From Weizmannia acidilactici (GTDB taxonomy: Bacteria; Bacillota; Bacilli; Bacillales; Bacillaceae_C), in contig NZ_BKZP01000006.1 of the NCBI RefSeq assembly GCF_008974185.1, positions 1 to 64,000 of the forward strand: DNA of 64,000 nt, in the 5' to 3' direction. Shown here in pieces: positions 1,295-16,318 of this stretch. Below the pieces are notes generated by a model. The model was not told where the DNA came from, did not search any database, and saw only the letters and a program-made list of their open reading frames with translations. Within the stretch, counting starts at the first letter, position 1. Every line of letters starts with the position of its first letter. The position numbers and the translations under genes are program-made.

Positions 1295-2092
1295 TTATTC
1301 GCAGTATTTTTGGTAAAAGGTTCCGAGCGTATATTTGTAATTCGGGTGCCACGGCTTGTCTTTTCCGCAGTAATGGATAAAAATCGTATAGTTTTTGATC
1401 CAGTTTAAGTCGTGCTTCTTGCTGAAATACTTGGAGAGTTCAAAAAAACGCGCATCATAGTTATATCGGCAGCTTTCGACAGGTTTTATTTTGTTCCAGA
1501 ATAATGCGTTGAATACGTCCTGGTCGGGGAGGATCAGTTTCAGCTTGTTCTCCTCGATAAACTCGTAGATCTCTTCCATTTTCACATGCTGCCGGATTAA
1601 GGCCATATTCATCAGCAGCACACCGGTGTTAAAGTATCCTTTTGCATTCGGTGTTCGCAGGCGGAGCTTGTTGATCAGCCGGGCTTTTTTCGCCGAATGT
1701 TCATGTTCGGATGCGATAAAGAAATGGCCTTCAAAGTCTGTATAGTAAAAAGGAGCAATCGGATTAATACAGACGATATCCGGATCGAGATAGAGGATTC
1801 TTTCGACATGTTCTGGCAAAAATAAATGGGCGGCCAGCCGGTAATACATTTCTGAAGTGTAATGCCTGAGGACCGGGGCATCTTTGAACATATTGGGGTC
1901 AACCCGGATCGGAAAAAAATGGTGTCCTTTGTCTTGGATGTAGGTATCCAGCGGCGAAAGTTTCTCTTCCGGAATGGAGGAATGGAGCAAATAGATCGAA
2001 AATGCTTCTTTTTCGTTGTTTTGGAAAAGAGAATTTAATAACACTTTCAGGGGAGAAAGATAGTTTTCATTTAACGTGACGAGGATATTCAT
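1295..2092 (-). CDS. Family 8 glycosyltransferase (GspA/LPS glucosyltransferase type)
   Basis: 265-residue nucleotide-sugar glycosyltransferase of family GT8. The N-terminus has the typical [11 protein letters not shown] start followed by a Rossmann-like half. The metal-binding DxD motif is DPD at residues 103-105 within [12 protein letters not shown], and HYCGKDKPW near the C-terminus supplies the second metal and UDP contact seen in GT8 enzymes. There is no signal peptide or membrane segment, so it is probably cytoplasmic. An AAAGGTGG site is spaced 8 bases from the ATG. B. subtilis GspA is the nearest relative I can name. The acceptor is not predictable from sequence. Confidence 0.85.
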
Positions 2093-2247
2093 TGTATTTC
2101 CACCTTTAGACTGACAAGTTTCTGCTTACTTTTATGATACAAGTTTCGGTTTACATAAACAAATTTTTTTCCGTATGCGGGTTTATATTCGCCGCTGGAA
2201 TTTGAAATCAGGCATTTTTTAACAAAATAGCCCGGCCTATTAAAAGG

Positions 2248-3594
2248 TCAAGCTCTGAGAAGGGATAATCTTTCCCACGGTTTTGAAAGCCAGCGGCGGG
2301 TGGCAAATGTGCCGCGGAACCATTCATCGATTCCTTGGGCAATCCAAATGCCGAGTAGCCCAAGGCCGAAATGCACCCCGAGGAAATAACTTAGGCCGAC
2401 AGCGAACAGCCACATCGAAAAAATCCCGATCAGAACGGGGAACCGTACATCGCCAGCCGATTTTAACGAGCTCATTAATACAATATTCATCGCCCTTCCC
2501 GGTTCAGTGAAGACAATCGCCCAAAGGATTGGAAGGCTGACGGCGAGGATGTCTCCGTTTTCCGTAAACAGGCGCATAACAGGCGATCCGGCCAGCGCGA
2601 TCGCCAGTGATGTGAGGAACGACGCCGCCATGGCGAGCTTTAATGTTTTCATGCCGCGGTGCAGTGCCCGGTCGTAATCTTTCGCACCGATGTATCGGGC
2701 AACAAGCAGCTGTGTGCCGGATGCGATCGCCAGCGTAAATAAATAACAGATCATGGAAATGTTTGTTAAATAGACGCGAGCGGCAAGGGATGCATCGCCA
2801 AGCACTGCTATGAACCCTGTAATAACGAGCTGGGAAAATTGGTAAGAAAAGTTCTCGCCGGCAGACGGGACGCCGATCTCGAGCAGTGCACGGATATCCC
2901 CTTTCTTCAGAGTGACAATATCTTTGATCTCCATTTTGAGCTCCAACCTGTGGTACACAAGAAATAGAAGCGCAGAAACGGCAAATACGCGCGCGACGAC
3001 GATGGCCCACGATACGCCCGCCACGCCGGTTACCGGAAGGCCGAAAATGCCCGAAATCGCCAAAATGTTGCCGATAATGCTGATGAAATCCATCAAAACC
3101 GTCACAAACATGGACTCCTTCGTATAACCGTGGCTTCTCAAGACGGCGCTCAATGCCAAGGAGATGGATTCCAGGAACAGTGATGCCCCGCATATTTTTA
3201 CAAAAGTAAGGCCGTAATCATAAACCTTCCCGTGGATATCAAAAAACCCGAGAAGGTTCCGGCCAAAGAAAAAGACGATCAGCCCGACGGCAAGCCCGAA
3301 CCAAAAATTCAACCCGAATGCGGAGTGTGCCACTTGGCGCGCTTCCCGGATTTTTCCGGCCCCTAGGTTTTGGCCAATTAAAATGACGGCGCCGATAGAC
3401 GTCACATTAAAGATGAGAATGAACATATTTAACAACTGGTTGGCAACGCCCACCCCGGCAGCGGCATTGTCGGAATAGTGGCTGAGCATGAGCGTTGCAA
3501 TGATCCCGATCCCCATATGCAGGGAAAGTTCAATAAAAAGCGGCCAGGAAATTTGGAACAAGGTTTGGTCCTTGTAGTGCTGTTGTTCTTCCAA
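2248..3594 (-). CDS. MATE family efflux transporter
   Basis: Twelve-helix Na+ or H+ coupled multidrug exporter of the MATE family. The protein is very hydrophobic and shows two homologous halves; NAAAGVGVANQLLN, IGAVILIGQNLGAGK and LLVARYIGAKDYDRALHRG are typical segments. I place the start at a TTG (3594) because AAAAGGGG is 8 bases upstream of it, whereas the longer frame opened at 3615 has no ribosome site; this gives 448 residues, normal for the family. Substrate is unknown. The gene is divergent from the ParM-like gene, with about 410 bp of repeat-rich DNA between them. Confidence 0.88.
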   Translation of the reverse strand: MEEQQHYKDQTLFQISWPLFIELSLHMGIGIIATLMLSHYSDNAAAGVGVANQLLNMFILIFNVTSIGAVILIGQNLGAGKIREARQVAHSAFGLNFWFGLAVGLIVFFFGRNLLGFFDIHGKVYDYGLTFVKICGASLFLESISLALSAVLRSHGYTKESMFVTVLMDFISIIGNILAISGIFGLPVTGVAGVSWAIVVARVFAVSALLFLVYHRLELKMEIKDIVTLKKGDIRALLEIGVPSAGENFSYQFSQLVITGFIAVLGDASLAARVYLTNISMICYLFTLAIASGTQLLVARYIGAKDYDRALHRGMKTLKLAMAASFLTSLAIALAGSPVMRLFTENGDILAVSLPILWAIVFTEPGRAMNIVLMSSLKSAGDVRFPVLIGIFSMWLFAVGLSYFLGVHFGLGLLGIWIAQGIDEWFRGTFATRRWLSKPWERLSLLRA

Positions 3595-3785
3595 TGCTTT
3601 ATCCCCTTTTATCAATGATATTTTTCTATATGTATACGCCGGGTTCCGTTGCCATCCGGCATGTATTTCTCTTCAATACTAGAAACATTGTAATCCTTAT
3701 TAGAACGCTGTCAATCTACAGGTACTGAAATATCTTGACTTTTTTATAGATAGGATGTTTTTCGGGAAAAAGACTTAAAAAAGCT

Positions 3786-3909
3786 TTGTTTGCATGTTTA
3801 CGAAAAGGCAAACAATTGCATGCAAAAATGCAAACATGTTTACAAACATGCAAACACCCCGGTATGATTGGATTTTTGAAAAGTTTACAAAATGCAAACA
3901 TGTTTACAA
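3786..3909. repeat. Iteron-like repeat block, candidate parC centromere/operator
   Basis: A 21-bp sequence occurs twice exactly, at 3825-3845 and 3889-3909 (start-to-start 64 bp). Its core AAACATGTTT is a perfect 10-bp palindrome. Related pieces lie beside it: GTTTGCATGTTTAC at 3789-3802, GGCAAACAATTGCATGC from 3807, and CAAACATGCAAACA at 3843-3856. The block is AT-rich, has no convincing gene, and sits just upstream of the promoter of the parM-like and parR-like genes. In type II segregation systems the ParR-binding centromere parC commonly sits upstream of parM and doubles as an operator, so that is the proposed role. This is inference from position and repeat form. Confidence 0.6.
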
Positions 3910-3932
3910 TTCTATTAAAAAAGTTCAGACTA

Positions 3933-3961
3933 TTGATTATTTTCATAGACTCTTATATTCT
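3933..3961 (+). promoter_or_regulatory. Likely promoter of the parM-parR operon
   Basis: TTGATT at 3933-3938 and TATTCT at 3956-3961 are 17 bp apart and lie 24 bp after the last iteron. The start codon of the ParM-like gene is 45 bp downstream, preceded by AAGGGAGGAA. Confidence 0.5.
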
Positions 3962-4006
3962 ATAGAGTAAGTAACAGAAGAAAGCGCTATAAGGGAGGAA
4001 AAATGA

Positions 4007-5185
4007 ATGGGAAAGACCCGGATTGCAGCGGTTGATGTGGGCAACGATTCTTTAAAGGCGATTTTTGGAAAACTGGAATATGAACTCAATATTCCGAACG
4101 TAATTGCTAGAGATATTGAAGACCGGCCGGTGATCGGCATAGAGGAATTGGACAACAAAAATCCGCTCGAAGGCATCCATGTGAAAGTCCACTCCCCTGC
4201 CTTGAAAGAAAATAATGTAATTTACCGTGTCGGGGAGCTTGCGACAAAAAGTGATAATGCAACAGAACTTGACCCGGGCAGCAGCAAATCGGAAGAAGAC
4301 CAGACGCTCGTCATGCTCTTTACAAGCCTGGCGCTTGATGCTGTAAGGGAAGAAAATGCAAAAGTTTTTACAAAAAACAAAAATGTCATTGATGCCAGTT
4401 ATACCCTCGGGACAGGCCTGCCGCTCCGCGAAGTGAAAGAAGGGAAAGATGCGGGCTACCGGTCGCAGCTGCTCGGATCTGTCCATCAGGTGGAGTTTCT
4501 CGTGACGCCAAAGTACCAGGGATTAAAAGTAAATCTTAAATTTGATGAAGTAAAAGTCTACCCGGAAGGTTTTGCGGCATTCATCAACCTTGTCATGGAT
4601 AATGATTTAAATATTATCAACCGGGATCTCATTGATAAACGGATCTTAATCCAGGATATCGGCGGATTGTCGACAGATATTGCCGTGATCAAAAACAGGA
4701 CGGTCGATGATGACCGGGCGCAGGGATTTAACCTCGGCGTTTCGGAAGCGCTTGAGCAAATCCGCGAAGAAATCCGGGTGAAATACGGGGTTGAATTGGA
4801 CAGCCGGCGTGATGTGGTGGACATTATCACGAAAAAGCATGACCGCAATCATATCATGGTAAAAGGCAGCCGGACAAGCGTCCATGATATTACCGACCGC
4901 GTCCTGTTTGACCTTGCCAAAAAACAGTACCGCTTGCTCCGGAATGTCTGGCAGAAAAACTCGCAAACGGAAATTTGCTATTTTGTCGGTGGCGGTTCCG
5001 TTGTCCTTAAAGATTATTTAAAAACGTTAAACAACAATTTGGATGGGTACAACATCGATTTCTTTGAAGACGAAAAAGAAAGCATTTGGATGATGGCGAA
5101 TGCCTACTACAAATTAATTTCGGATTATGTGAGGAAAAACATTAAACCGGAAGACAAAGGAAAGAAACCTGTCGAATCCAAATAA
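4007..5185 (+). CDS. ParM/StbA-like actin ATPase
   Basis: 392-residue bacterial actin homologue of the ParM/StbA group, whose members polymerise with ATP to push DNA molecules apart. The phosphate-1 loop is DVGNDSLK at residues 10-17, the phosphate-2 loop DIGGLSTDIAV begins near residue 217, and the adenosine motif GGGSVVLKDYL is near residue 328. Spacing is that of a full actin fold, without membrane segments or a signal peptide. The ATG at 4007 is chosen because GGGAGGAAAA precedes it; an ATG at 4003 is out of frame. The next gene follows after 11 bp and looks like ParR. Flanking genes are ordinary chromosomal ones and no replication, transfer or phage genes are seen, so this appears to be a chromosomal relative of plasmid ParM. 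Confidence 0.82.
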   Translation: MGKTRIAAVDVGNDSLKAIFGKLEYELNIPNVIARDIEDRPVIGIEELDNKNPLEGIHVKVHSPALKENNVIYRVGELATKSDNATELDPGSSKSEEDQTLVMLFTSLALDAVREENAKVFTKNKNVIDASYTLGTGLPLREVKEGKDAGYRSQLLGSVHQVEFLVTPKYQGLKVNLKFDEVKVYPEGFAAFINLVMDNDLNIINRDLIDKRILIQDIGGLSTDIAVIKNRTVDDDRAQGFNLGVSEALEQIREEIRVKYGVELDSRRDVVDIITKKHDRNHIMVKGSRTSVHDITDRVLFDLAKKQYRLLRNVWQKNSQTEICYFVGGGSVVLKDYLKTLNNNLDGYNIDFFEDEKESIWMMANAYYKLISDYVRKNIKPEDKGKKPVESK

Positions 5186-5196
5186 GGTGAAAAGGC

Positions 5197-5760
5197 ATGG
5201 AAAAACAAAGTGAGATGAAGAGGGGACAGACGATTGCTTTCCGGATCCCCTCGGACACACCCGACCATATTTTAAGGGAACTCCAAAAGCTGAAAGAAAA
5301 AGAAAGAAGGAATTTTTCAAGAAAAATTGCCGAATACGTGGTACAAGGCATCAACCAATCGCTGGTAAAAGAAAAAGAAACGATCACGATCCCGCTTCCC
5401 CGGAAGCTGTCGAAAGCCCAGCATGACTGGCTCAAGCATGAACACTCGGAAGCGATGTTGGGCAGCATCGTCTACCAGCTGATCCAGGATCCACTACGGG
5501 TGACGTCGCTGTTTGCCGCGTTGGCAAGCAAATCGACAAATATTGACGAAGCCCTGTATTTGCAGGAAGACCTCCCGGAAATAGGGGCGCCGGATAAGAC
5601 GGAAACAGCGAACGCTGCTGCCCCCGGCACGGTACAGGATGATCTCGATGCTTTCGACTGGAGGACGGCGGTGCAGGAACAGGCTGCCGCGGAAGAACCG
5701 GAAAAAGAAGAGGACCTGGAAGATCTGCTTGGAGACTTTCTGGCCAGCATGAATAAATGA
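5197..5760 (+). CDS. ParR-like small DNA-binding protein
   Basis: 187-residue protein immediately downstream of the ParM-like gene. The N-terminus (residues about 9-50) reads as a ribbon-helix-helix: a strand QTIAFRIP, a helix DHILRELQKLKEKERR, and a second helix NFSRKIAEYVVQGI. The middle part is amphipathic. The tail from about residue 130 is acidic and low-complexity and ends with LEDLLGDFLASMN, a plausible short helix that could touch the filament, as the C-terminus of plasmid ParR does. Start chosen from the AAGGTGAAAAGGC site before the ATG. I do not recognise a close named homologue; the ParR call rests on size, fold pattern, position after parM and the upstream repeats. Confidence 0.62.
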   Translation: MEKQSEMKRGQTIAFRIPSDTPDHILRELQKLKEKERRNFSRKIAEYVVQGINQSLVKEKETITIPLPRKLSKAQHDWLKHEHSEAMLGSIVYQLIQDPLRVTSLFAALASKSTNIDEALYLQEDLPEIGAPDKTETANAAAPGTVQDDLDAFDWRTAVQEQAAAEEPEKEEDLEDLLGDFLASMNK

Positions 5761-5787: not shown

Positions 5788-5841
5788 AAAAAGGGCGCCC
5801 CAGAGTCAATGATTGACTTTAAGGGTAGCCCCTTTTCATTT
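5788..5841 (+). terminator. Terminator after the parR-like gene
   Basis: AAAAGGGCGCCCC and GGGTAGCCCCTTTT enclose an inner perfect arm AGTCAAT/ATTGACT, followed by a T-rich stretch. It closes the two-gene parM-parR unit. Confidence 0.7.
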
Positions 5842-5887
5842 TAAGAAATAGTACTATAATGAAAATTAAAAAAAGGGGATGGCAAAG

Positions 5888-6667
5888 ATGGAAAACATCA
5901 TTGAACTTTCTGGGGTAAGTTTTATGCGGGACGGCAAAAAACTGCTTTCGGATATTAACTGGACCATCCAAAAAGGGGAACACTGGGCTGTCCTTGGTTT
6001 AAACGGTTCCGGAAAAACGACTTTGCTCAATATGATCAACGGATATATCTGGCCGACAACCGGCAGCATCCGGGTGCTCGGGCAGACATTCGGAAAAACA
6101 AGCCTGCCGGAGCTAAGAAAATCGATCGGCTGGGTGAGTTCGTCGATTCAGGAAAGGATTCCGCGCACCCAGCTTGCCCGCCATGTCGTCATCAGCGGGA
6201 AGTATGCCTCAATTGGATTGTATGAGGAATTTACCAAAGAAGACGAAGACAAGGCCATCCACCTGATGGAAAAATTAAATTGCGTTGGTCTTGCGGACAG
6301 CCCGTATGAACAATGCTCGCAGGGGGAAAGGCAGAAACTGCTGATTGCACGCGCGTTAATGGCGGAGCCGCGCATCCTGATTTTGGACGAGCCTTGCAAC
6401 GGGCTGGATCTGTTTGCCCGGGAAATCCTGCTGAAAAGCGTTGAAGAGCTGGCTGGTGATCCAAACGGGCCGGCATTGATTTACGTAACGCACCATCCGG
6501 AGGAAATTTCGCCGGTATTCCAAAAGACTTTGCTGCTCAGGCGCGGGGAAGTGTTTCAACAGGGGGACACTTCCGATATGATTGAAAAAACATCGCTCTC
6601 CCGCTTCTTTGAACATGAAATCCATGTGGAATGGCGGGGGAACCGGGCTTCATTTCAACTCGTTTGA
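5888..6667 (+). CDS. ylmA: ABC transporter ATP-binding protein, YlmA type
   Basis: 259-residue lone nucleotide-binding domain. Walker A is GLNGSGKTT near residue 42, the signature is CSQGERQKLLIARAL (SQGE replacing SGGQ), Walker B with catalytic Glu is ILILDEPCNGLD, and the switch His is in YVTHHPEE. This pattern and length fit B. subtilis YlmA and E. coli ModF-like stand-alone ATPases. The ATG at 5888 is preferred over that at 5879 because AAGGGG touches the first one directly but is 9 bases from the second. No permease gene is adjacent, so the partner and substrate are unknown. Confidence 0.85.
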   Translation: MENIIELSGVSFMRDGKKLLSDINWTIQKGEHWAVLGLNGSGKTTLLNMINGYIWPTTGSIRVLGQTFGKTSLPELRKSIGWVSSSIQERIPRTQLARHVVISGKYASIGLYEEFTKEDEDKAIHLMEKLNCVGLADSPYEQCSQGERQKLLIARALMAEPRILILDEPCNGLDLFAREILLKSVEELAGDPNGPALIYVTHHPEEISPVFQKTLLLRRGEVFQQGDTSDMIEKTSLSRFFEHEIHVEWRGNRASFQLV

Positions 6668-6708
6668 TTTTTGGAAAAATGATGTAAAGAAAAAATATAA
6701 AATATGAA

Positions 6709-6737
6709 TTGACAAATCCCTAGTCGTCCACTAATAT
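6709..6737 (+). promoter_or_regulatory. Consensus sigma-A promoter of metNPQ
   Basis: TTGACA at 6709-6714 and TAATAT at 6732-6737 are separated by 17 bp. The S-box leader starts about 23 bp downstream. Confidence 0.85.
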
Positions 6738-6759
6738 TTAAAGTATAACAAATGAATAA

Positions 6760-6863
6760 CTTATCAAGAGAGACTGAGGGACAGGCCCAATGACGTCCAG
6801 CAACCTTCAAAGCTGCTTTGAAAGGTGCTAATTCCTGCAGAATGTTTCATTCTGAAAGATAAG
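6760..6863 (+). promoter_or_regulatory. SAM-I (S-box) riboswitch upstream of metNPQ
   Basis: The P1 stem is CTTATC (6760-6765) with GATAAG (6858-6863). Inside are the S-box marks AGAGAGACTGAGGGA, GGCCCAATGA, CAGCAACC and AAAGGTGCTAATTCC, in the family order. It senses S-adenosylmethionine and stops transcription when SAM is abundant. It controls the methionine importer that follows. Confidence 0.97.
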
Positions 6864-6877
6864 TCACTTTTACGGCA

Positions 6878-6908
6878 AACCTCTTTCGAATGAAAGTGGT
6901 TTTTTTTT
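6878..6908 (+). terminator. S-box expression-platform terminator
   Basis: AACCTCTTTC (6878-6887) pairs with GAAAGTGGTT (6892-6901) with one mismatch and is followed by a run of eight T. It is the regulated terminator of the S-box. Confidence 0.9.
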
Positions 6909-6937
6909 GCCTGAAGCTTACAAAAGGAGATTTTCAC

Positions 6938-7978
6938 ATGCTGGTATTAGATGATATTCATAAAGTGTATGGCAAAGGAAAGGAGAAAAAGGTCGAGGCT
7001 TTAAAGGGTATCAACCTGCGCGTTGAAAAAGGGGAAATTTTCGGCGTAGTTGGATACAGCGGTGCCGGAAAAAGTACGCTCATCAGATGCGTGAACCTTT
7101 TGGAACGGCCGACATCAGGAAAAGTCCTGATTAACGGGGTTGACCTTCTCGCCCTTTCACCGAAAGAACTGCGGAATCAGCGAAAAAAAATCGGGATGAT
7201 TTTCCAGCAGTTTAACTTGCTCCAATCGAAGACGATTTTCCAAAACGTGGCCATGCCGCTTGTGCTTGAACACCGCCCGAAGGAAGAAATCAAAGCGAAA
7301 GTGACCGAGTTATTATCTTTTGTCGGTTTGGAAGACAGAATGAACCATTATCCGGAACAATTATCGGGCGGCCAAAAGCAAAGGGTTGGTATCGCGCGCG
7401 CATTGGCAACCGATCCGGACATCCTGCTCTGCGATGAAGCAACGTCGGCCCTTGACCCGAACACAACCGAAGCAGTGCTCGATCTTTTGCGGAAAGTCCG
7501 CGACGAGCTCGGCATCACCATTTTAATGATCACGCATGAGATGAATGTCATCCGCGATGTTTGCGATAAAGTAGCGGTGCTGGATGGTGGGAAAATTGTC
7601 GAGCAGGGTCCTGTCATCGATATTTTTACAGAACCGAAAACACAGATTGCGAGAAGCTTCGTCAAAACGGTTCTCAATGACTCGAACCCGAAATCGGTGC
7701 AAAAACTGATTGATGAGAGCAGCAAGGAAAACCCGCACGGCATCTATCGGATTCTGTTTAAAGGGGCATCCACCAATGTGCCGCTTTTGTCAAATACCGC
7801 GAAACATTTTTCCGTTGATTTGAATGTGCTCCACGGCATGATCACCGAACTCCAGGGCATTCCTTTCGGAAATCTGCTTGTTGAGCTGAAAGGCGATCGT
7901 GAAGAGATAGAGCGTGCCATCCAGTACATTCGGGAACATGACGCGATCATCAGGGAGGTGGAACAAAATGGCATTTGA
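6938..7978 (+). CDS. metN: Methionine ABC importer ATPase
   Basis: 346-residue ATPase that powers methionine uptake at the cytoplasmic face. Walker A is GYSGAGKST, the signature LSGGQKQRV, Walker B DILLCDEATSALD, and the switch region MITHEMNV. The C-terminal 100 residues form the NIL domain, which binds methionine and causes trans-inhibition in MetN. The ATG at 6938 is used because AAAAGGAGA lies 7 bases upstream; an in-frame GTG at 6890 lies inside the riboswitch terminator. Its 3' end overlaps metP by 11 bp, showing translational coupling. Confidence 0.97.
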   Translation: MLVLDDIHKVYGKGKEKKVEALKGINLRVEKGEIFGVVGYSGAGKSTLIRCVNLLERPTSGKVLINGVDLLALSPKELRNQRKKIGMIFQQFNLLQSKTIFQNVAMPLVLEHRPKEEIKAKVTELLSFVGLEDRMNHYPEQLSGGQKQRVGIARALATDPDILLCDEATSALDPNTTEAVLDLLRKVRDELGITILMITHEMNVIRDVCDKVAVLDGGKIVEQGPVIDIFTEPKTQIARSFVKTVLNDSNPKSVQKLIDESSKENPHGIYRILFKGASTNVPLLSNTAKHFSVDLNVLHGMITELQGIPFGNLLVELKGDREEIERAIQYIREHDAIIREVEQNGI

Positions 7979-8630
7979 TTGGTCATGGTTTTGGCCGGAA
8001 TTTTTCACGGCAATTAACCAAACACTATACATGGTCATTGTATCCTTAATCATTTCTATTATCATCGGGATTCCAGTCGGCGTCATTCTCGTTATTACCC
8101 GGGAAAACGGGATTTTGGAAAATAAATGGATTTTCAATATTTTAAACGTCATTATCAATATTTTCAGATCTATTCCTTTTATCATTTTAGTTGTCGCGAT
8201 CATCCCGTTTACCCGCCTTATTGTCGGAACGGCGATCGGAACAACGGCAGCAATCGTCCCGCTTGTCCTGTATACGGCTTTTTATATCGGGCGGCTTGTT
8301 GAAAGCTCCCTCCTTGAGGTCGATAAAGGCACAATTGAACTCGCCCAGTCCATGGGGGCAACGCCTTGGCAGATCATTTGGAGGTTTTTGCTTCCGGAAG
8401 CTTTGGCATCCATTGTCCTGAATTTAACGATTGCGACAATCGGACTGATCGGTGCATCCGCGATGGCAGGGGCTGTCGGGGCTGGCGGGGTCGGCGATTT
8501 GGCGATTACGTACGGCTACAACCAGTTCCAAACAGGGGTCATGATTATTACGGTTGTTACACTGATCGTCCTGGTACAGCTTGTTCAGACATTAGGGAAT
8601 TTCTTATCCAGGAAGATTAGGAGAAAATAA
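7968..8630 (+). CDS. metP: Methionine ABC importer permease
   Basis: 220-residue inner-membrane permease (MetI type) with five hydrophobic segments. The EAA loop that docks to MetN is seen as IELAQSMGATPWQIIWRFLLPEAL. The start is the ATG at 7968 preceded by GGGAGGTGGAACAAA, inside the end of metN. Size and order match B. subtilis metP, between metN and metQ. Confidence 0.96.
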   Translation: MAFDWSWFWPEFFTAINQTLYMVIVSLIISIIIGIPVGVILVITRENGILENKWIFNILNVIINIFRSIPFIILVVAIIPFTRLIVGTAIGTTAAIVPLVLYTAFYIGRLVESSLLEVDKGTIELAQSMGATPWQIIWRFLLPEALASIVLNLTIATIGLIGASAMAGAVGAGGVGDLAITYGYNQFQTGVMIITVVTLIVLVQLVQTLGNFLSRKIRRK

Positions 8631-8704
8631 GCTTGCATGGCATTGACCACTGTGAATAAGGTTTACACCTTTCAATAAAAATATTTTCAGGGGGATTTAT
8701 CACT

Positions 8705-9547
8705 ATGAAAAAATTTGCCATTATTTTATTGGGCCTCATTCTTGTTATGGCAGGATGCGGAACCAAGAACAATTCAAGTAGCAGCACCACCACCAAGACG
8801 ATCAAAGTGGGGACAACCACTTCTGAAGTGCCGACTTGGACATTGATCCAAAAACTTGCGAAAAAGAAAAACATCAATATTAAGATTGTCCGTTTTGATG
8901 ATTACGTACAGCCGAACCTCGCTTTAAACGACGGGGAAATTGACATTAACGCATTCCAAACGGTTGTTTATTTCGATGATTTTATTAAACAGCGCAACTT
9001 GAAGCTTTCTGCAATCGGTACAACAAATATTTGGCCGATGGGCATTTACTCGAAAAAATATAAAAAGATAAGCCAAATCAAAGACGGAGACCAAATCGTC
9101 ATTCCGAAAGACCCGACAAACCTGGGCAGGGCATTATTGCTGTTGCAAAAAGCCGGTTTGATCACGGTGAAAAAAGGATTTACAGGCAAAGGCGGCCTGG
9201 AAAACATTGCTTCAAATCCGAAACATTTGAAAATCACTGCGGTTGACGCTGCCCAAACGCCGCGTGGCATGGATGATGCGGCAGCTGCCGTCATCAACTG
9301 CGACATGGCGATCAACGCAGGCTTGAGCCCGGTAAATGACTCTATCTTCCGTGAAGATGCAAGCAATAAAGCATACATTAACATCATTGCTGCCCGTACA
9401 AAAGATAAAAACGACAAAACTTTGCAGGAAATCGTAAAAATCTACCATTCCAAAGAAGTGACAGATTTTATTAAAAAACATTATAAAGGTGCAGCCGTAC
9501 CGGTCGTTAAACCAGTATCATACTTAAAAGACTATAAACAAAACTAA
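8705..9547 (+). CDS. metQ: Methionine-binding lipoprotein
   Basis: 280-residue extracytoplasmic receptor of the NlpA/MetQ family. A lipoprotein signal peptide ends in LVMAGC with Cys at residue 18, the lipid anchor site. The mature part carries TIKVGTTTSEVPTW and the family segments NAFQTVVYFDDF and VDAAQTPRGMDDAAAAVINCDMA in the ligand cleft. It delivers methionine to MetP and MetN. It lies 74 bp after metP in the same S-box operon, and a strong hairpin follows. Confidence 0.96.
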   Translation: MKKFAIILLGLILVMAGCGTKNNSSSSTTTKTIKVGTTTSEVPTWTLIQKLAKKKNINIKIVRFDDYVQPNLALNDGEIDINAFQTVVYFDDFIKQRNLKLSAIGTTNIWPMGIYSKKYKKISQIKDGDQIVIPKDPTNLGRALLLLQKAGLITVKKGFTGKGGLENIASNPKHLKITAVDAAQTPRGMDDAAAAVINCDMAINAGLSPVNDSIFREDASNKAYINIIAARTKDKNDKTLQEIVKIYHSKEVTDFIKKHYKGAAVPVVKPVSYLKDYKQN

Positions 9548-9553
9548 TCCGCT

Positions 9554-9585
9554 GAAAAGCCCGGCATAGAAAAGCCGGGCTTTTC
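9554..9585 (+). terminator. Terminator of metNPQ
   Basis: GAAAAGCCCGGC (9554-9565) and GCCGGGCTTTTC (9574-9585) form a 12-bp stem with an 8-base loop and a short T tract. Confidence 0.9.
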
Positions 9586-9732
9586 CCATTTTGGTCAATC
9601 TACCGACTTTTGGACAGTCCCTTCCCATTTTACTCTGCTATTTGCAACTTTCTAAAAATCAAGGAATCTCTTATAATGGAAGTAAGGGTTTTCGACATGT
9701 GCGGAGTAAAAATGAAAAGGGGGAAATCTTTT

Positions 9733-11511
9733 ATGGCGGCGCTTTTGCCGATCATGCTGGAACGTGCCGGCATTCTTGTCATTGCTGCTTTTTTGTTGTC
9801 ACGCCTAAAAACTTTCCGGCAAATCATCCATCAGGAATACGGGCGGAAAGAAAAGCTCGTGCTTATCCTTATTTTTGGCATCTTCGGCATGATCAGCAAT
9901 TACACCGGGATTGTGATTGAACACGGGAAAATTTCGGAAGCTTTCGGGCATAGCCATTTGTCGGTCGAAAGCGCCATTGCCAACACGAGGATCATGGGCG
10001 TCGGCATCGCCGGGTTATTGGGCGGCCCTGTTGTCGGCATCGGTGCAGGAGTTTTCGCGGGCATCCACCGGTTAACATTGGGCGGCTATACAAATATTGT
10101 GTGCAGCCTGTCCACCATCATTGCGGGCATTTTCATGGGTCTGCTCGGCAAACGGTACAATGTGCGGGGAAAATATGCCGCTTTGCAGGCGGTTTGTGCC
10201 GGAATGCTGATGGAAATGCTGCAAATGGCAATTATTTTGTCGGTTGCAAAACCGTACGAAGATGCGCTTGAACTCGTCCGGTTGATTGCGGTGCCGATGA
10301 TTACGATTAACGGGTTCGGGACGTTCGTTTTCATTTTGATTATCCAAACGATTTTGCTTGAAGAAGAGCGGACAAGGGCGTGGCAGACGCACAGGGCGCT
10401 GCAGATTGCCCAGGAAACGCTTGCCCATTTCAGGAAGGGGCTGAACACCGAATCGTGCAAAAAGGCGGCGGAGATCATCCTAAAACGTACATCAGCCGAT
10501 GCGGTGGCGATTACGGACCGCGAGAAGGTGCTGGCACATGTCGGGGCAGCGTCTGACCACCATATTCCGCTGCAGAGCATGTCGACGAAATTGACGGAAA
10601 AAGTGCTTGAACAGGGAAAAATCATGGTTGCAACATCGAACCGGGAAATCCAGTGCACGCATGAAGGGTGTCCGCTCCAGGCGGCCATTGTTCTGCCGCT
10701 TTTAGTCCGTGAGCAAGTGGTGGGCACATTAAAGCTGTACTTTAAAACAGCTGGACAGTTAAGTTCGGTTGAACAGGAGCTTGCCGAGGGCTTAAGCAAG
10801 CTTTTTTCAAACCAGCTTGAACTGGCGGAGGCGGAACTGCAGAGAAAGTTGTTAAAAGATGCGGAAATTAAGGCGCTCCAGGCCCAGGTCCATCCGCATT
10901 TCTTTTTCAATGCGATCAACACCATTACCTGCCTTGTCCGGACGGATACCGATAAAGCAAGGGCTTTGCTTATCCAGCTCGCCGCTTTTTTCCGTAGTAA
11001 TTTGCAGGGGTCAAGAAAAATGCTGATTCCGCTCGAAAAAGAGCTGGAGCATGTGAAAGCGTATCTAGCCATCGAGCAGGCGCGGTTTCCGGGCCGGTAT
11101 GATGTTGTTTTTGACATCGATCCGTTTTTAAAAACAGCGATGGTGCCGCCCTTTACTCTCCAGCCATTGGTGGAGAATGCAATTCACCATGCATTTTCCC
11201 GGCCGGGTGCCCAAAAACCTTCCGTCGCGATCCGCGCTTTTGTCAAAAACGGGAATTTTTACATGGTTACGGAAGACAACGGTAAGGGGATCCCGGAGGA
11301 ATTGGCGCGGTCTCTCGGAAATGTAGCAGTTGACTCATCCGATGGAACGGGAACAGCGCTATGGAACATAAAGAAAAGGATGGAGGAAATTTACGGCCGG
11401 GGGGCAATGTTTCACATTGAAAGCAGGGAGAATGCGGGGACAAAAGTGACCATTTCCATACCGCTTGATGAGATGTGGGGGGAAGAATATGCTAAAAGCA
11501 TTTGTAGTTGA
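9733..11511 (+). CDS. lytS: Sensor histidine kinase, LytS family
   Basis: 592-residue membrane kinase. The N-terminal 5TM LytS domain (residues about 10-200) includes IANTRIMGVGIAGLLGG and GAGVFAGIHRLTLGG. A GAF-like region follows (about 230-360), then the His_kinase domain with phospho-acceptor His in QVHPHFFFNAINTI, and a HATPase with LVENAIHHAF and EDNGKGIPEE. I chose the ATG at 9733 because AAAGGGGG is 9 bases upstream and the length then equals B. subtilis LytS; the frame is open to a TTG at 9610. It overlaps lytT by 23 bp. Related LytS/BtsS sensors respond to external pyruvate, and the CstA-family neighbour supports that here. Confidence 0.93.
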   Translation: MAALLPIMLERAGILVIAAFLLSRLKTFRQIIHQEYGRKEKLVLILIFGIFGMISNYTGIVIEHGKISEAFGHSHLSVESAIANTRIMGVGIAGLLGGPVVGIGAGVFAGIHRLTLGGYTNIVCSLSTIIAGIFMGLLGKRYNVRGKYAALQAVCAGMLMEMLQMAIILSVAKPYEDALELVRLIAVPMITINGFGTFVFILIIQTILLEEERTRAWQTHRALQIAQETLAHFRKGLNTESCKKAAEIILKRTSADAVAITDREKVLAHVGAASDHHIPLQSMSTKLTEKVLEQGKIMVATSNREIQCTHEGCPLQAAIVLPLLVREQVVGTLKLYFKTAGQLSSVEQELAEGLSKLFSNQLELAEAELQRKLLKDAEIKALQAQVHPHFFFNAINTITCLVRTDTDKARALLIQLAAFFRSNLQGSRKMLIPLEKELEHVKAYLAIEQARFPGRYDVVFDIDPFLKTAMVPPFTLQPLVENAIHHAFSRPGAQKPSVAIRAFVKNGNFYMVTEDNGKGIPEELARSLGNVAVDSSDGTGTALWNIKKRMEEIYGRGAMFHIESRENAGTKVTISIPLDEMWGEEYAKSICS

Positions 11512-12205
11512 CGACGAGCTGCCGGCCAGGGATGAACTGATTTATTTGCTGGAAAAAACCGGAAAAGTGGAAATAGCGGGGGAAGCGGAGTCGGTAAAAG
11601 AAGCGCTCCGGAAGCTTGAAGAAACGGAAGCGGATGTATTATTTGTGGATATGATGCTGACTAATGAACATGGAATGGATCTGGTTGAGGAAATCAACCG
11701 GCGGCCGCGGCATCCGTATATTGTATTTGCAACGGCATACGATGAATATGCCGTAAAAGCGTTTGAACTCAATGCAGTGGACTATATATTAAAACCTTTT
11801 GAAGAGAAAAGGGTGGCGCAAACGGTTGATAAGATGGAAAAATTGCTGGAGAACGGCCGCTCCGCCCCGCCTAAAAATACGGGCAAATTGGCCGTTACAG
11901 TGGATGAACGGATCGTGATTATCCCGATTGAAAAACTGTTGTACGCAGAATCGGTTGAAGGTCGCACGATGATTGCCACCGACAATGAAAAATATACGGT
12001 AACAGAACCGCTTGTAAATGTAGAAAAGAAACTGCAATCTACATCCATTGTCCGTGTCCACCGCGCCTATCTCGTCAATCTGGATGCGATCGTGGAAATC
12101 CGGCCATGGTTCCATTCCACTTATAATCTCATCATGCGGGACGGGGCAAAGATCCCGGTCAGCCGCACATACAAGCATGTGTTAAAGCAGTTTATCCGGA
12201 TTTAG
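11489..12205 (+). CDS. lytT: Response regulator with LytTR DNA-binding domain
   Basis: 238-residue regulator. The receiver domain (1-120) has the acidic pair DDE near residue 7, the phospho-Asp in VLFVDMMLTNE and the Lys in ILKPFEEKR. The LytTR domain (about 135-238) shows IPIEKLLYAESVEGRTMI and VRVHRAYLVNLDAI. The start ATG lies inside the end of lytS after GGGGGGAAG. It should activate a nearby target, most simply the cstA gene 130 bp downstream. No clear paired LytTR repeat could be fixed by eye in that gap. Confidence 0.93.
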   Translation: MLKAFVVDDELPARDELIYLLEKTGKVEIAGEAESVKEALRKLEETEADVLFVDMMLTNEHGMDLVEEINRRPRHPYIVFATAYDEYAVKAFELNAVDYILKPFEEKRVAQTVDKMEKLLENGRSAPPKNTGKLAVTVDERIVIIPIEKLLYAESVEGRTMIATDNEKYTVTEPLVNVEKKLQSTSIVRVHRAYLVNLDAIVEIRPWFHSTYNLIMRDGAKIPVSRTYKHVLKQFIRI

Positions 12206-12335
12206 CTTGCAGCTCATCCTGCTTTTTTTCCCTCCTACCTTTAAATTCTTGCATTTTATACAAAAAACAACTTATCCACTGTCATAAACTTATAAAATAT
12301 AAGCGATGAGGAGAATAAAAGGAGGCTTCAAGGAA

Positions 12336-14138
12336 ATGAATGCGATTACAATCGTAATCGGCGCCATCTGTATTTTAATCATTGCTTATCGTTTATATGG
12401 CACGTTTATGGCAGTAAAAGTTTTAAAGCTGAATAATGATACGCTGACACCAGCACATGAATTCAACGATGGGAAAGACTACGTGCCGACCAACAAGTGG
12501 GTGACGTTCGGGCACCATTTTGCGGCGATTGCGGCAGCTGGCCCGCTTGTCGGCCCGATTTTGGCGGCACAGTTCGGCTATTTGCCGGGCCTTTTATGGC
12601 TGTTGATCGGTGCAGTCATCGGAGGTGCCGTGCATGACGCTGTTGTGCTGTTTGCTTCGATGCGACGGAAAGGGAAGTCGCTTTCCGAGGTGGCAAAAGA
12701 AGAAATGGGCCCGGTTGCCGGCTTCTGTACGGGCCTTGCAATGCTGTTTATTATCGTAATTACGATGGCGGGTTTGTCCATGGTCGTTTTGAACGCGCTG
12801 CAAAATAACCCATGGGGCACGTTTGCCGTGGGCATTACGATTCCGATTGCCATGGGGGTCGGTTTGCTGTACAAAAAAACCGGCAATTTGAAACTGTCTT
12901 CCACGATTGGTTTCCTGCTGATTATGGCTGGCGTTTTTTCCGGGCCGTGGATCCAGCATTCCGTCATTGGGGAGTGGCTTACCTTTGATGCGAAAACTTT
13001 GGCTATTATTCTTCCTGCTTATGCATTTTTTGCTGCGGCGCTCCCGGTATGGCTGCTTTTGGCCCCACGCGATTATTTGAGCAGTTTTATGAAAATCGGC
13101 GTGTTCGTTGCCCTGATTATCGGTGTATTTATCATTAATCCGCCGATCCATATGCCCGCGCTGTCGCAATTTATTCATGGTGGCGGCCCGACGATGACAG
13201 GTCCGGTTTGGCCGTTTATTTCAATTACCATCGCTTGCGGCGCAATTTCGGGATTCCACGCTTTTATCGGATCCGGGACAACACCGAAAATGCTGGATAA
13301 ATGGACGGATATTAAGCCTGTTGCATTCGGCGCCATGCTTGTTGAGTCCCTGGTCGGGGTGATGGCGCTGGTGGCCGCGACTGCCCTTCAGCCTGCCGAC
13401 TATTTCGCGATCAACTCGACGCCTGAAGTCTTCAAGACGCTCGGCATGCATGTTGTTAATCTCCCGCATTTGAGCAGTGAAATCGGGATGGATTTGGCGG
13501 GCAGAACAGGCGGCGCTGTCACGCTGGCTGTCGGCATGACATATATTTTCACGAAGATCCACTGGTTCAGCAACCTGGCGCCGTTCTTCTATCAATTTGT
13601 CATCTTGTTTGAAGCGGTGTTTATCCTGACGGCGATTGACTCGGGTACCCGCGTGGCGCGCTATTTGCTGCAGGACTTTTTGGGTGAGCTGTACAAACCG
13701 CTGAAAAAGACGGATTGGCAGCCGGGCACCATTTTTACAAGCGCTTTGGCCTGCTTCATGTGGGGTTATTTGCTCTACTCCGGCGACATCGGATCGGTTT
13801 GGGCGCTGTTCGGCGTGTCGAATCAGCTGATGGCTTCAATCGGACTGATTGTGGGGGCGACGGTGATTTTAAAAATTGCCGACAAAAAGCGGTATGTGTT
13901 GACCTGCCTTATTCCGCTCGCTTATCTATATGTCACGGTCAACTATGCCGGTTATTGGATGATAAAAAATGTTTACCTGAACCATGCGGCATCGGGGTAC
14001 AACGTGCTGAATGGCATATTGTCCATCATTATGCTGATCCTCGGGCTTGTCATTATGGTTGCCGCTTTGAAAAACTGGTACAATTTGATCAAAGCCCCCG
14101 CCATTCCGGATTTGGAAACTTCGGCAAGGAAAGCTTAA
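12336..14138 (+). CDS. cstA: CstA-family carbon starvation/pyruvate transporter
   Basis: 600-residue polytopic membrane protein, the length of Bacillus CstA and shorter than E. coli CstA/BtsT (about 700). Family motifs include NDGKDYVPTNKWVTFGHHFAAIAAAGPLVGP near the N-terminus and FHAFIGSGTTPKM in the middle, with about 15 membrane segments. The ATG at 12336 has AAAGGAGG 10 bases upstream; the longer frame from 12306 lacks a site. E. coli BtsT is a pyruvate/H+ symporter induced by the LytS-type BtsS/BtsR pair; the same arrangement here suggests pyruvate uptake, although peptide uptake has also been proposed for CstA. Confidence 0.92.
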   Translation: MNAITIVIGAICILIIAYRLYGTFMAVKVLKLNNDTLTPAHEFNDGKDYVPTNKWVTFGHHFAAIAAAGPLVGPILAAQFGYLPGLLWLLIGAVIGGAVHDAVVLFASMRRKGKSLSEVAKEEMGPVAGFCTGLAMLFIIVITMAGLSMVVLNALQNNPWGTFAVGITIPIAMGVGLLYKKTGNLKLSSTIGFLLIMAGVFSGPWIQHSVIGEWLTFDAKTLAIILPAYAFFAAALPVWLLLAPRDYLSSFMKIGVFVALIIGVFIINPPIHMPALSQFIHGGGPTMTGPVWPFISITIACGAISGFHAFIGSGTTPKMLDKWTDIKPVAFGAMLVESLVGVMALVAATALQPADYFAINSTPEVFKTLGMHVVNLPHLSSEIGMDLAGRTGGAVTLAVGMTYIFTKIHWFSNLAPFFYQFVILFEAVFILTAIDSGTRVARYLLQDFLGELYKPLKKTDWQPGTIFTSALACFMWGYLLYSGDIGSVWALFGVSNQLMASIGLIVGATVILKIADKKRYVLTCLIPLAYLYVTVNYAGYWMIKNVYLNHAASGYNVLNGILSIIMLILGLVIMVAALKNWYNLIKAPAIPDLETSARKA

Positions 14139-14154
14139 CCACTGAAAAAATCGT

Positions 14155-14182
14155 ACCGCTCTTTTAATGGAGCGGTTTTTTT
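14155..14182 (+). terminator. Terminator of cstA
   Basis: ACCGCTC (14155-14161) and GAGCGGT (14170-14176) with an 8-base loop and a T run. Confidence 0.9.
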
Positions 14183-14285
14183 GTATGGGGAAAAGGAATT
14201 TCGTGTTACCGGCAATAGAAATTTAGTACAGACATTGATCCTGATAGCGGCTAATCAAAAAATTTTTAAAATTTAATTAACCCTC

Positions 14286-14314
14286 TGGTAATTCGGAGGT
14301 AAAATTGTTATAAT
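14286..14314 (+). promoter_or_regulatory. Possible promoter of the aminotransferase gene
   Basis: TATAAT at 14309-14314 with a weak TGGTAA 17 bp upstream. An AT-rich stretch AAATTTTTAAAATTTAATT lies at about 14260-14278 and faintly resembles a CodY box, but it matches too poorly to call. Confidence 0.4.
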
Positions 14315-14360
14315 AAATCGAAAATAATAACTTTATACATTGGAAAGGGATGCTTTCGGT

Positions 14361-15434
14361 TTGAATCAGGTTATCGAATTAATTAAAGCAGATGTGAAAA
14401 AAGAAAAACCGGCTGTAGAATCATTAGGATTTGGCAAACACTTTACGGATTACATGTTTGTCATGGACTATAATGATGAAGATGGCTGGCATCATCCACG
14501 AATTACACCTTACGCTCCGCTTGTATTGGAACCTTCGGCGATGGTGCTGCATTACGGCCAGGCTGTTTTCGAAGGATTGAAAGCCTACCGCGCAAAGGAT
14601 GGAAGGGTTCTGCTGTTCAGGCCTGAAAAAAATGTTGCCAGGCTGAATATGTCTTGCGCGAGATTGAGCATCCCGCAAATAGACGAAGATGTTGTACTAG
14701 ATGCGATTAAACAGCTTGTCGAACTCGAAAAAGATTGGATCCCGAATGAAGAAGGGACTTCGCTTTATATCCGTCCGTTTATCATTGCGACGGAATCAAG
14801 CCTTGGCGTGCATCCGGCACATGAATATAAACTAATGATCATTCTTTCTCCGGTAGGGTCCTACTACGGAGATCAATTGAAACCTGTCAGGATTTACGTT
14901 GAAGACGAATATGTCCGCGCCGTTCCGGGAGGCGTCGGTTTTACGAAGACTGCCGGAAACTATGCGGCAAGCCTGAAAGCGCAGGAAAAAGCGGAACAGA
15001 TGGGCTATGACCAGGTGCTTTGGCTGGACGGCGTTGAAAGAAAATATATTGAAGAAGTCGGAAGCATGAACATCTTCTTTAAAATCAACGGGGAAGTTGT
15101 CACGCCGAAGCTGAACGGCAGCATCCTCGGCGGCGTCACAAGGGATTCGGTCATCCAGCTGCTGCAATATTGGAATGTTCCTGTCAGAGAAGTTCGGATT
15201 TCGATCGATGAAATTTATGAAGCTTACCAAAAAGGCCAGTTGGAAGAAGTATTCGGAACAGGGACAGCCGCTGTCATTTCCCCTGTCGGCGAGCTCGGCT
15301 GGAAAGACATTATAATGGAACTCCCGAATGCGGAAGATCCGGATACGATTGCCAAGCGGCTTTACGATGCATTAACCGGCATCCAGCTTGGGAAAACGGA
15401 AGATCCGCTGAACTGGACGCTAGAAATTAAATAA
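14361..15434 (+). CDS. ilvE: Branched-chain amino acid aminotransferase
   Basis: 357-residue PLP enzyme of fold type IV that interconverts Leu, Ile, Val and their 2-keto acids. It matches B. subtilis IlvK (YwaA) closely: HYGQAVFEGLKAY, EGTSLYIRPFIIATE, and the PLP lysine in FTKTAGNYAASLKAQEKA; WLDGVERKYIEEVGSMN and FGTGTAAVISPVGEL are conserved active-site parts. I favour the TTG at 14361 with AAAGGG 11 bases before it; a TTG at 14340 is also in frame but has no ribosome site. It stands alone, followed by a hairpin. Confidence 0.93.
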   Translation: MNQVIELIKADVKKEKPAVESLGFGKHFTDYMFVMDYNDEDGWHHPRITPYAPLVLEPSAMVLHYGQAVFEGLKAYRAKDGRVLLFRPEKNVARLNMSCARLSIPQIDEDVVLDAIKQLVELEKDWIPNEEGTSLYIRPFIIATESSLGVHPAHEYKLMIILSPVGSYYGDQLKPVRIYVEDEYVRAVPGGVGFTKTAGNYAASLKAQEKAEQMGYDQVLWLDGVERKYIEEVGSMNIFFKINGEVVTPKLNGSILGGVTRDSVIQLLQYWNVPVREVRISIDEIYEAYQKGQLEEVFGTGTAAVISPVGELGWKDIIMELPNAEDPDTIAKRLYDALTGIQLGKTEDPLNWTLEIK

Positions 15435-15449
15435 TTTTAAGATTGAGAG

Positions 15450-15480
15450 GGCCGGTCCCCAGCATAAAGGGGCCGGCTTT
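15450..15480 (+). terminator. Hairpin after ilvE, weak terminator
   Basis: GCCGGTCCCC (15451-15460) pairs with GGGGCCGGC, followed by only three T. Confidence 0.6.
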
Positions 15481-15562
15481 CCTAATGATGGCGGGCTGTA
15501 CTGGAATTTACCGGTCCAACTGTGGTTTAATTAATGCAGAAATGTAACATGGGGAGAAACAA

Positions 15563-16318
15563 ATGAAACTTAGCCAGGAAGAAGCTCACCAAGTGATGCA
15601 AGTATGTTTATTGGCTGGAAAAATTATGCTGATGGGTGGAGCGGAAACTTACCGCGTGGAGGATACAATGTCTAGAATCGCAGCCGCTTGCGGAATCAGC
15701 GGGTCGCACAGCTTTGTCACGCCGACCGCCATTATTTTTTCGCTTGATGGCGCTGAACTGACAAAACTGATCCGCATTTCCAACAGGTCAACAGACTTAA
15801 GGAAAGTCGACCAGGTGAACAGCATCTCAAGGAAGATCAGCAATCGCACGCTCACGCTCCGGGAAGCATATGACCAGTTAAAAAAAATTGAAAAAGAGGA
15901 AGAAGCCTACCCTCTATGGCTGCAGTTGCTTGCCGCTTCCATTGCGAGCGGCTGCTTTGTGATCATATTTTTAGGCGGCTGGGCGGATTTTCTGCCGGCA
16001 TGTATTGTTGGCGGGCTCGGTTTCCTCAGCACACTTTATGTGCACCATTTCGTAAAGGTGCGGTTTTTTGCGGAATTTGTCGCTTCACTCGTAATCGGCA
16101 TCACGGCATACGGCCTTGTCCAGGTCGGAATCGGCCGGGAATTGGATAAAATCATCATCGGTTCGGTCATGCCGCTTGTACCAGGGCTTGCCATCACAAA
16201 CGCGCTGCGCGACCTTATGGCGGGCCATTTATTCTCCGGCGTCTCAAAAGGCGCTGAAGCATTTTTGACCTCTTTTGCGATCGGCGCCGGCATTGCCATC
16301 ATATTAACGATTTTTTAA
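15563..16318 (+). CDS. Threonine/serine exporter, N-terminal ThrE half (YjjP type)
   Basis: 251-residue DUF1212 protein. A soluble N-terminal part (1-110, with LLAGKIMLMGGAETYRVEDTM and FVTPTAIIFSLDG) is followed by about five membrane segments, with VMPLVPGLAITNALRDLMAGH near the C-terminus. Corynebacterium ThrE exports threonine and serine as one chain; in Bacilli it is split in two. The second half follows after 11 bp. GGGGAGAAACAA precedes the ATG. Confidence 0.88.
   Translation: MKLSQEEAHQVMQVCLLAGKIMLMGGAETYRVEDTMSRIAAACGISGSHSFVTPTAIIFSLDGAELTKLIRISNRSTDLRKVDQVNSISRKISNRTLTLREAYDQLKKIEKEEEAYPLWLQLLAASIASGCFVIIFLGGWADFLPACIVGGLGFLSTLYVHHFVKVRFFAEFVASLVIGITAYGLVQVGIGRELDKIIIGSVMPLVPGLAITNALRDLMAGHLFSGVSKGAEAFLTSFAIGAGIAIILTIF

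Follow-up and report, generated by a model that had tools for sequence, protein, structure and literature searches.

Positions 3786-5760 of a 64,000-nucleotide stretch of Weizmannia acidilactici DNA (contig NZ_BKZP01000006.1, positions 1 to 64,000; hereafter, the window) contain, in this order, an iteron array, a gene encoding an actin-like ATPase and, after 11 nt, a gene encoding a ParR-like adaptor (Table 1). A first inspection of the letters alone, to which we refer as the sequence-only reading, had described this block as a complete, possibly domesticated ParM/ParR/parC-type cassette in a chromosome, and had proposed that its conservation in related genomes be checked. A scan of genome contigs resulted in the identification of 419 relatives among 485 pattern hits, and the best 80 were kept for locus comparisons. 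The adaptor gene is present directly downstream of the ATPase gene in all 80 kept loci, and an array of at least four iteron half-motifs is located upstream in 79 of them. The proposed check therefore came out in favour of a conserved three-part block. In the genome from which the window is taken, the ATPase gene is present in a single copy.

Components of the cassette

The predicted ATPase passes the Pfam gathering score for Alp7A-like actins (Alp7A_like_C; E 4.8e-34, 117.8 bits, cut-off 22), and also matches ALP_N (E 2.3e-9, 38.1 bits, cut-off 26.3) and the "partition protein" family of PHROGs. Its nucleotide-binding motifs are DVGNDS (residues 10-15), DIGGLSTD (residues 217-224) and GGG (residues 328-330). 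We aligned the ATPases, and likewise the adaptors, of 35 of the 81 sequences, chosen by us, and the columns of all three ATPase motifs are invariant or nearly so, in agreement with the earlier claim that the motifs are intact. A search of the PDB with the ATPase sequence gave no match at E 0.1. The best solved folds for the structural model, which is weak (predicted local distance difference test score, pLDDT, 61.5), are those of Bacillus thuringiensis ParM, pCBH ParM, Alp7A (5ec0) and the chromosomal Dh-cParM1 (8x1i). The top fold matches are thus ParMs, which have a closed beta-barrel subdomain, a level of detail for which a model of this pLDDT is too weak.

For the adaptor, neither Pfam nor PHROGs gave a match at the limits used, and a sequence search of the PDB gave one chance-level match alone. 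Its model, which is of low confidence (pLDDT 53), contains a strand (residues 12-16) followed by two helices (22-35 and 39-57), which is the order of a ribbon-helix-helix fold. In addition, residues 4-107 are homologous to a plasmid protein (26-44% identity, 18 records), which directly follows ParM in all five plasmids that we read. Both observations support the ribbon-helix-helix N-terminus that had been claimed for the small protein. The protein can be divided into a predicted ribbon-helix-helix domain (residues ~9-57), a conserved middle block (60-124), an acidic linker and a C-terminal tail with the sequence DDLLGDFLAxMNK. In plasmid R1, the C-terminus of ParR binds ParM. The solved complex of R1 ParM with the ParR C-terminus (4a62) is listed among the fold matches and, by analogy, the conserved tail of the chromosomal adaptor is likely the contact with the ATPase.

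The 21-bp direct repeat noticed in the upstream block is exact (3825-3845 and 3889-3909), and further CAAACATG/GTTTACA copies are located nearby. The iteron motif is TGTWWACA; in Heyndrickxia, TGTTTGCA/TGCAAACA is also found. When a full palindrome is counted as two half-motifs, the 420 bp upstream of the ATPase gene of the window contain eight half-motifs, versus 0.15 expected from dinucleotide shuffles. For the window and the 80 kept loci together, the 81 upstream regions contain 846 half-motifs versus 35 expected, i.e., about 10 on average. The count is more than three times the expectation in every region and at least four in 80 of them; the weakest region, that of locus L042, has two. Spacings of 8, 12 and 20 bp between iterons are the most frequent, and would keep the sites roughly on helical phase.

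We also screened for the array pattern in 13 genomes, and the counts were above those of a reversed control in nine genomes and below them in four. Among the matches listed (genomes G133, G069, G405, G007 and part of G009), tight clusters of two to three hits within ~90 bp were found only at the module. The pattern is not sensitive, because the array of G133 was missed. Outside the module, the count stays below five half-motifs in every 300-bp stretch of the 300 kb analysed in G645. Within the window, the only other place with at least three half-motifs per 300 bp is a cluster of three to four at positions 53035-53190, inside a predicted spermidine synthase gene, which may be due to chance.

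Table 1. Features of the module and their positions in the window
Feature	Position	Strand	Basis
parC-like iteron array	3786..3909		Repeated TGTWWACA / TGYWWRCA palindromes, including the 21-bp exact direct repeat
Candidate promoter in the gap between array and gene (weak)	3933..3961	+	TTGATT - 17 nt - TATTCT; 8/12 consensus positions; by eye
Actin-like ATPase, ParM/Alp7A type (chromosomal ParM, cParM), 392 aa	4007..5185	+	Open reading frame, Pfam, motifs, fold match
ParR-like adaptor, 187 aa	5197..5760	+	Open reading frame, alignment, weak model, homology to plasmid adaptors
Codons of the conserved adaptor C-terminal tail, candidate ATPase-binding peptide	5707..5757	+	Alignment of 35/81 relatives; role by analogy with ParR of plasmid R1
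Terminator-like hairpin 3' of the two-gene operon (weak)	5821..5834	+	4 such sites in the region versus 2.5 expected

The candidate promoter is absent from the output of the scan tool, and another weak promoter-like site is located inside the array (3839-3868). The module is flanked by a gene for a MATE transporter (2248-3615, minus strand) and one for an ABC ATPase (5879-6667, plus strand). The Pfam assignments agree with the flanks given by the sequence-only reading, except that the name ylmA for the ABC ATPase gene is that reading's own label. The neighbourhood consists of ordinary metabolic, transport and regulatory genes, including those for a glycosyltransferase, the MATE transporter, ABC transporters, a LytS/LytT-type pair, CstA and an aminotransferase. 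As had been noted, genes for replication, conjugation or phage functions are absent: none was detected by Pfam in 1295-3615, in 5879-16318 (excluding the open reading frame at 7914-8630) and in three genes further out, the remaining genes of the window being judged by eye.

Spread and inheritance of the module

In the best 80 of the 419 relatives, which belong to Heyndrickxia, Fictibacillus, Cytobacillus, Neobacillus and other genera, the ATPase is 83-97% identical and the adaptor 48-73% (local alignment). The mean column identity in the 35-row alignments is 87% for the ATPase versus 61% for the adaptor. This difference bears on the possibility that the module is a transcriptional or chromosome-organising device, in which the adaptor on its array would control genes or be associated with the nucleoid, and the ATPase would have a tuning role that involves no movement of DNA. 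The position of the iterons, immediately 5' of the operon, and the fact that many ribbon-helix-helix proteins are repressors would fit this; however, that the ATPase is the most conserved part would better fit a filament under many contact constraints, and we consider such a device very unlikely.

At the limits used, ATPase matches were present in all five genomes of the genus (the window's own included), in 28 of 34 genomes of the family and in 208 of the 397 sampled genomes of the order. The best E value was 1e-197 or lower in 207 of these 208 carriers, the exception being G244 (1.8e-21). In a sample of the class, the ATPase was found in 24 of 398 genomes at E 1e-100, eight of which are outside the order. 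Neither this wide spread in the Bacillales nor the closeness to oriC described below was part of the sequence-only reading.

Strong purifying selection acts on the genes. When Heyndrickxia coagulans 36D1 is compared with 14 loci from other genera, the ATPase protein is 82-86% identical, whereas fourfold-degenerate sites differ at 0.60-0.78, like those of neighbouring genes, and are saturated. In all seven syntenic pairs that we chose, no other gene shared in the stretch is as well conserved as the ATPase gene, and the window copy of the ATPase is closer than ArgS to its counterpart in 43 of 43 genomes (median 83 versus 74%). An addiction-like remnant, one of the options raised initially, is contradicted by this selection, and searches of Pfam and NCBIfam with the ATPase and the adaptor gave no toxin family.

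A quick tree, built from the ATPase protein alone, has 81 rows, and 33 of its 76 inner branches are unresolved. Heyndrickxia, Fictibacillus and Psychrobacillus form one clade each, which is not the case for the sequences labelled "Bacillus", Cytobacillus, Neobacillus, Sutcliffiella and Mesobacillus; the labels are partly unreliable. Two sequences labelled Pseudomonas sp. ISL-84 (L016) and Chryseobacterium sp. ISL-80 (L057) group with Cytobacillus- and Mesobacillus-type sequences and, judging from this grouping, are probably mislabelled Bacillaceae. A second, distant actin-like gene, whose product is 31-33% identical, was observed in five genomes (G144:C1:2497190, G258:C1:2797785, G299:C1:2821133, G132:C1:3324558 and G270:C1:839746). 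It is located towards the terminus, at 0.83-0.90 of the distance between dnaA and the half-way point of the chromosome; G084, G196 and G360 have a similar weak actin-like match located elsewhere.

The family resemblance to plasmid ParM/ParR could point to a recent plasmid or phage insertion, or to a decaying remnant of one, and the sequence-only reading had stated that a conserved set of neighbours revealing such an insertion would speak against its proposal. We looked for this situation and did not find it, since the genes flanking the module vary from genus to genus and the fourfold sites are saturated at 82-86% protein identity. In addition, the three genera named above form clades, the side of the chromosome on which the module resides is constant in the 45 genomes mapped below, and the surrounding genes are ordinary chromosomal ones. 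Recent insertion was therefore rejected on the basis of the saturated sites, the clade structure and the varying flanks, and this origin, or decay, is extremely unlikely. The description as a domesticated cassette agrees with a block that is intact and very conserved, and we are highly confident that the module is a complete chromosomal ParM/ParR/parC-type cassette with mainly vertical inheritance.

One case of loss was observed. Genome G007, a sister species from the genus of the carriers G008 and G009, gave no match to the ATPase anywhere at E 1e-10. A 220-kb stretch left of its origin (~59 to 279 kb away) includes the two flanks found in the sister loci, ~2 kb apart. This stretch, the only part of G007 in which the adaptor was sought, contains no ATPase gene, adaptor gene or iteron cluster (at most two motifs per 300 bp). 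Hence, in this genome the three parts were lost together.

Position near the origin and possible function

We mapped the module relative to dnaA in 43 carriers with one to four contigs (24 single-contig and 19 with two to four), with one non-carrier added to the set; the few-contig carriers G012 and G024 were left out. In all 43 genomes, representing 22 genera, the distance between dnaA and the ATPase gene is 36-288 kb (median 93 kb), and the ATPase gene is always located on the upstream side of dnaA, on the opposite strand and pointing away from the origin. The same arrangement was found in two single-contig genomes among the eight carriers outside the order (-52 and -57 kb), resulting in a total of 45 out of 45. 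As a control we used ylmA, which adjoins the module in the window. It was found in 12 of the 44 genomes and, in the 11 outside the genus, is located 0.4-2.3 Mb away, on either side.

The sequence-only reading had mentioned the moving of a chromosomal region as one possible role, and this is still the most suitable reading, given an intact and very conserved block that lies close to the origin in all 45 mapped genomes. The best explanation as a whole, to which we give an even chance, is that of an inherited chromosomal type II DNA-positioning module acting on origin-proximal DNA; that positioning of the origin region is its function is, taken by itself, slightly less probable than that. According to this explanation, dimers of the ParR-like adaptor would coat the phased iterons to form a nucleoprotein platform, and the clustered adaptor tails would hold the end at which a cParM filament, driven by ATP, grows or shrinks. 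In this way, the left arm of each sister chromosome, which bears the array close to the origin, would be pushed, pulled or anchored by the filament, in addition to the action of ParABS/SMC. The most likely use of the module would be to place the origin during the division cycle or when the cell divides asymmetrically in sporulation, and autoregulation of the operon is a probable second role of the array. The parts, their conservation, their linkage and their location are observed, and we infer binding, polymerisation and movement of cargo.

In a more far-reaching version, which we regard as doubtful, the chromosome of many spore-forming Bacillales would have a second centromere that depends on an actin filament instead of ParA and that captures or holds the left arm near the origin, perhaps when sporulating cells divide asymmetrically. 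Under the same sampling settings, 381 of the 397 order genomes gave a SpoIVA match, and the 16 genomes without spoIVA include none of the 208 carriers (Fisher p 5e-6 without regard to ancestry), which also speaks for the explanation given first. These 16 genomes are rather small (2.5-3.8 Mb) and belong to six genera, some of them in families that include carriers.

Several observations weigh against a positioning role. The link with spoIVA reflects few independent events, with ancestry and genome size as confounders, and nearly half of the genomes with spoIVA (173 of 381) lack the module. The core gene argS, located 51 kb away in the window, is present on the same side and strand in all 43 genomes, at 116-605 kb from dnaA, and the ATPase gene always lies between dnaA and argS, so that the position is not special to the ATPase gene. 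Because argS shares the side and the orientation, shared descent therefore explains much of the position of the module. This weakens position as proof of function: the module resides on an old, stable chromosome arm that it shares with core genes, which is compatible with a role at the origin and is no proof of one. Furthermore, many lineages do without the module, given that 189 of the 397 order genomes lack it at E 1e-20, and the Alp7A family was found in none of the 14 named control genomes. These include Bacillus subtilis, the membership of which was deduced from its DnaA and SpoIVA matches in that set. Both structural models are weak, and details of dimer and barrel are beyond their reach. 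Additional arrays may exist in some genomes, where the pattern counts are clearly over those of the reversed control (e.g., 31 versus 9 in G303 and 29 versus 17 in G042). Finally, a relative of the ATPase that is 79% identical is located on a conjugative-type element (see below), and therefore exchange with mobile DNA has occurred.

With a single-copy, origin-proximal and strongly conserved cParM in bacteria that can be cultivated, such as Heyndrickxia coagulans, the question of function can be tested directly, and the defined centromere-like array offers a handle for labelling, deletion or relocation. If an actin-driven second centromere did exist, the absence of the module from the model organism B. 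subtilis would explain why it has never been seen.

Relation to plasmid and other chromosomal systems

Plasmid homologues of the ATPase were found in 67 records, none of them with at least 60% identity; the best of the 40 listed is 43.9% identical, the nearest listed group is 35-44% identical and identity falls to ~23% further out. Phage homologues are limited to three weak partial matches. ParM/ParR pairs of Bacillales plasmids, such as pBM69 of Bacillus methanolicus (NZ_CP007740), have the gene order and adaptor homology in common with the module, and the iterons upstream in the five plasmid relatives are of the same type as the chromosomal ones (TGTATACA/TGTATGCA-type motif). However, the five plasmid adaptors are 134-149 aa long with an acidic tail after an FxxxxF motif, whereas the chromosomal adaptors are 187-208 aa long and have an extra conserved block (residues ~101-124) and the DDLLGDFLAxMNK tail or a close variant (LLGDFLAxMN-type). 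By the same count, one to six half-motifs are present upstream in the five plasmids versus about 10 on average in the chromosomal regions. Of the features of type II plasmid partition, an ATPase with intact motifs, an adjacent gene for a predicted ribbon-helix-helix adaptor and centromere-like repeats in excess are present here, but the module does not sit on a plasmid that it stabilises but on the chromosome. Judged by its sequence, the module would work like a plasmid partition system without being one.

In view of these similarities, the cassette might have been retained as an autoregulated plasmid-type system that is used with plasmids: incoming plasmids that carry the same iterons would be helped, destabilised or kept out by it. 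Cross-binding is plausible, as the same type of upstream motif occurs on plasmids of the same bacterial group, and Ali et al. (2025, PMC12270681) discuss help to plasmids as a possible role of cParMs. Orphan ATPases that are 79% identical were observed on two IMG/VR contigs (L186, 10001-11143, IMGVR_UViG_3300037312_001617; and L185, 4549-5688). Six iteron half-motifs are located upstream of the orphan gene, and genes with TcpC, TcpE, AAA_10 and Replic_Relax domains (Pfam) nearby; the latter indicate a conjugative-type element, and we rejected the idea that the contigs are pieces of chromosome. An adaptor gene was sought without success in 21 kb of one 116-kb contig, and such an element may borrow the adaptor of its host. 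An orphan of this kind fits a use with plasmids. On the other hand, the best listed plasmid ATPase is 44% identical and the tails of the plasmid adaptors differ, and conservation above that of ArgS would be unusual if the partner plasmids vary. We therefore regard interaction with plasmids as unlikely.

Another system with similarities is Alp7A of the B. subtilis plasmid pLS20, which shares the Alp7A_like_C domain and is among the fold matches (5ec0). The ATPase of the window differs in that it is chromosomal and mainly vertically inherited, and the identity in the structural match is 16%.

FcmB and FcmC of Nostoc are likewise a chromosomal pair derived from ParM/ParR plasmid partition genes and, according to PMC12645912, are required for rod shape. 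This precedent raises the possibility that the module is a repurposed cytoskeleton of plasmid origin serving cell shape or the envelope, in which the array merely regulates the operon. The filament of CorM with CorR of Anabaena (solved structure) is also among the fold matches of the ATPase, and the adaptor differs from the five plasmid ParRs in its tail and in a block specific to the chromosomal proteins. Nevertheless, the ATPase scores far below the cut-off of the FcmB family model (NCBIfam morpho_FcmB, 23.5 of 300 bits), and an array that is kept and large compared with those of the five plasmids would exceed the needs of simple autoregulation. A role in shape is therefore quite unlikely, and DNA positioning remains our preferred explanation.

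A search of listings of the open-access literature, mostly without subscription papers, gave nothing on an origin-proximal ParM or cParM in Bacillales. In the part of Ali et al. (2025) considered here, the distance to the origin is not mentioned; the terms "replication origin" and "origin of replication" are absent, and "oriC" appears once, in the title of a reference. The paper reports that cParMs of Desulfitobacterium hafniense, Clostridium botulinum and Bacillus tropicus form filaments, leaving their function open, and that cParM is conserved in Desulfitobacterium, "several Bacillus" and Moorella species, with no conserved cparC among Clostridium strains. As far as described there, those systems resemble the module in combining a chromosomal ParM-type ATPase with a ParR-like gene and in their high conservation within a genus, and the fold match with Dh-cParM1 (8x1i) agrees with this. 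The module differs from the systems as described there in that one family extends over many genera, with a conserved iteron array, proximity to the origin and an enlarged adaptor. It looks like a widespread, origin-proximal variant of the chromosomal ParMs, the adaptor of which is enlarged and differently tailed.

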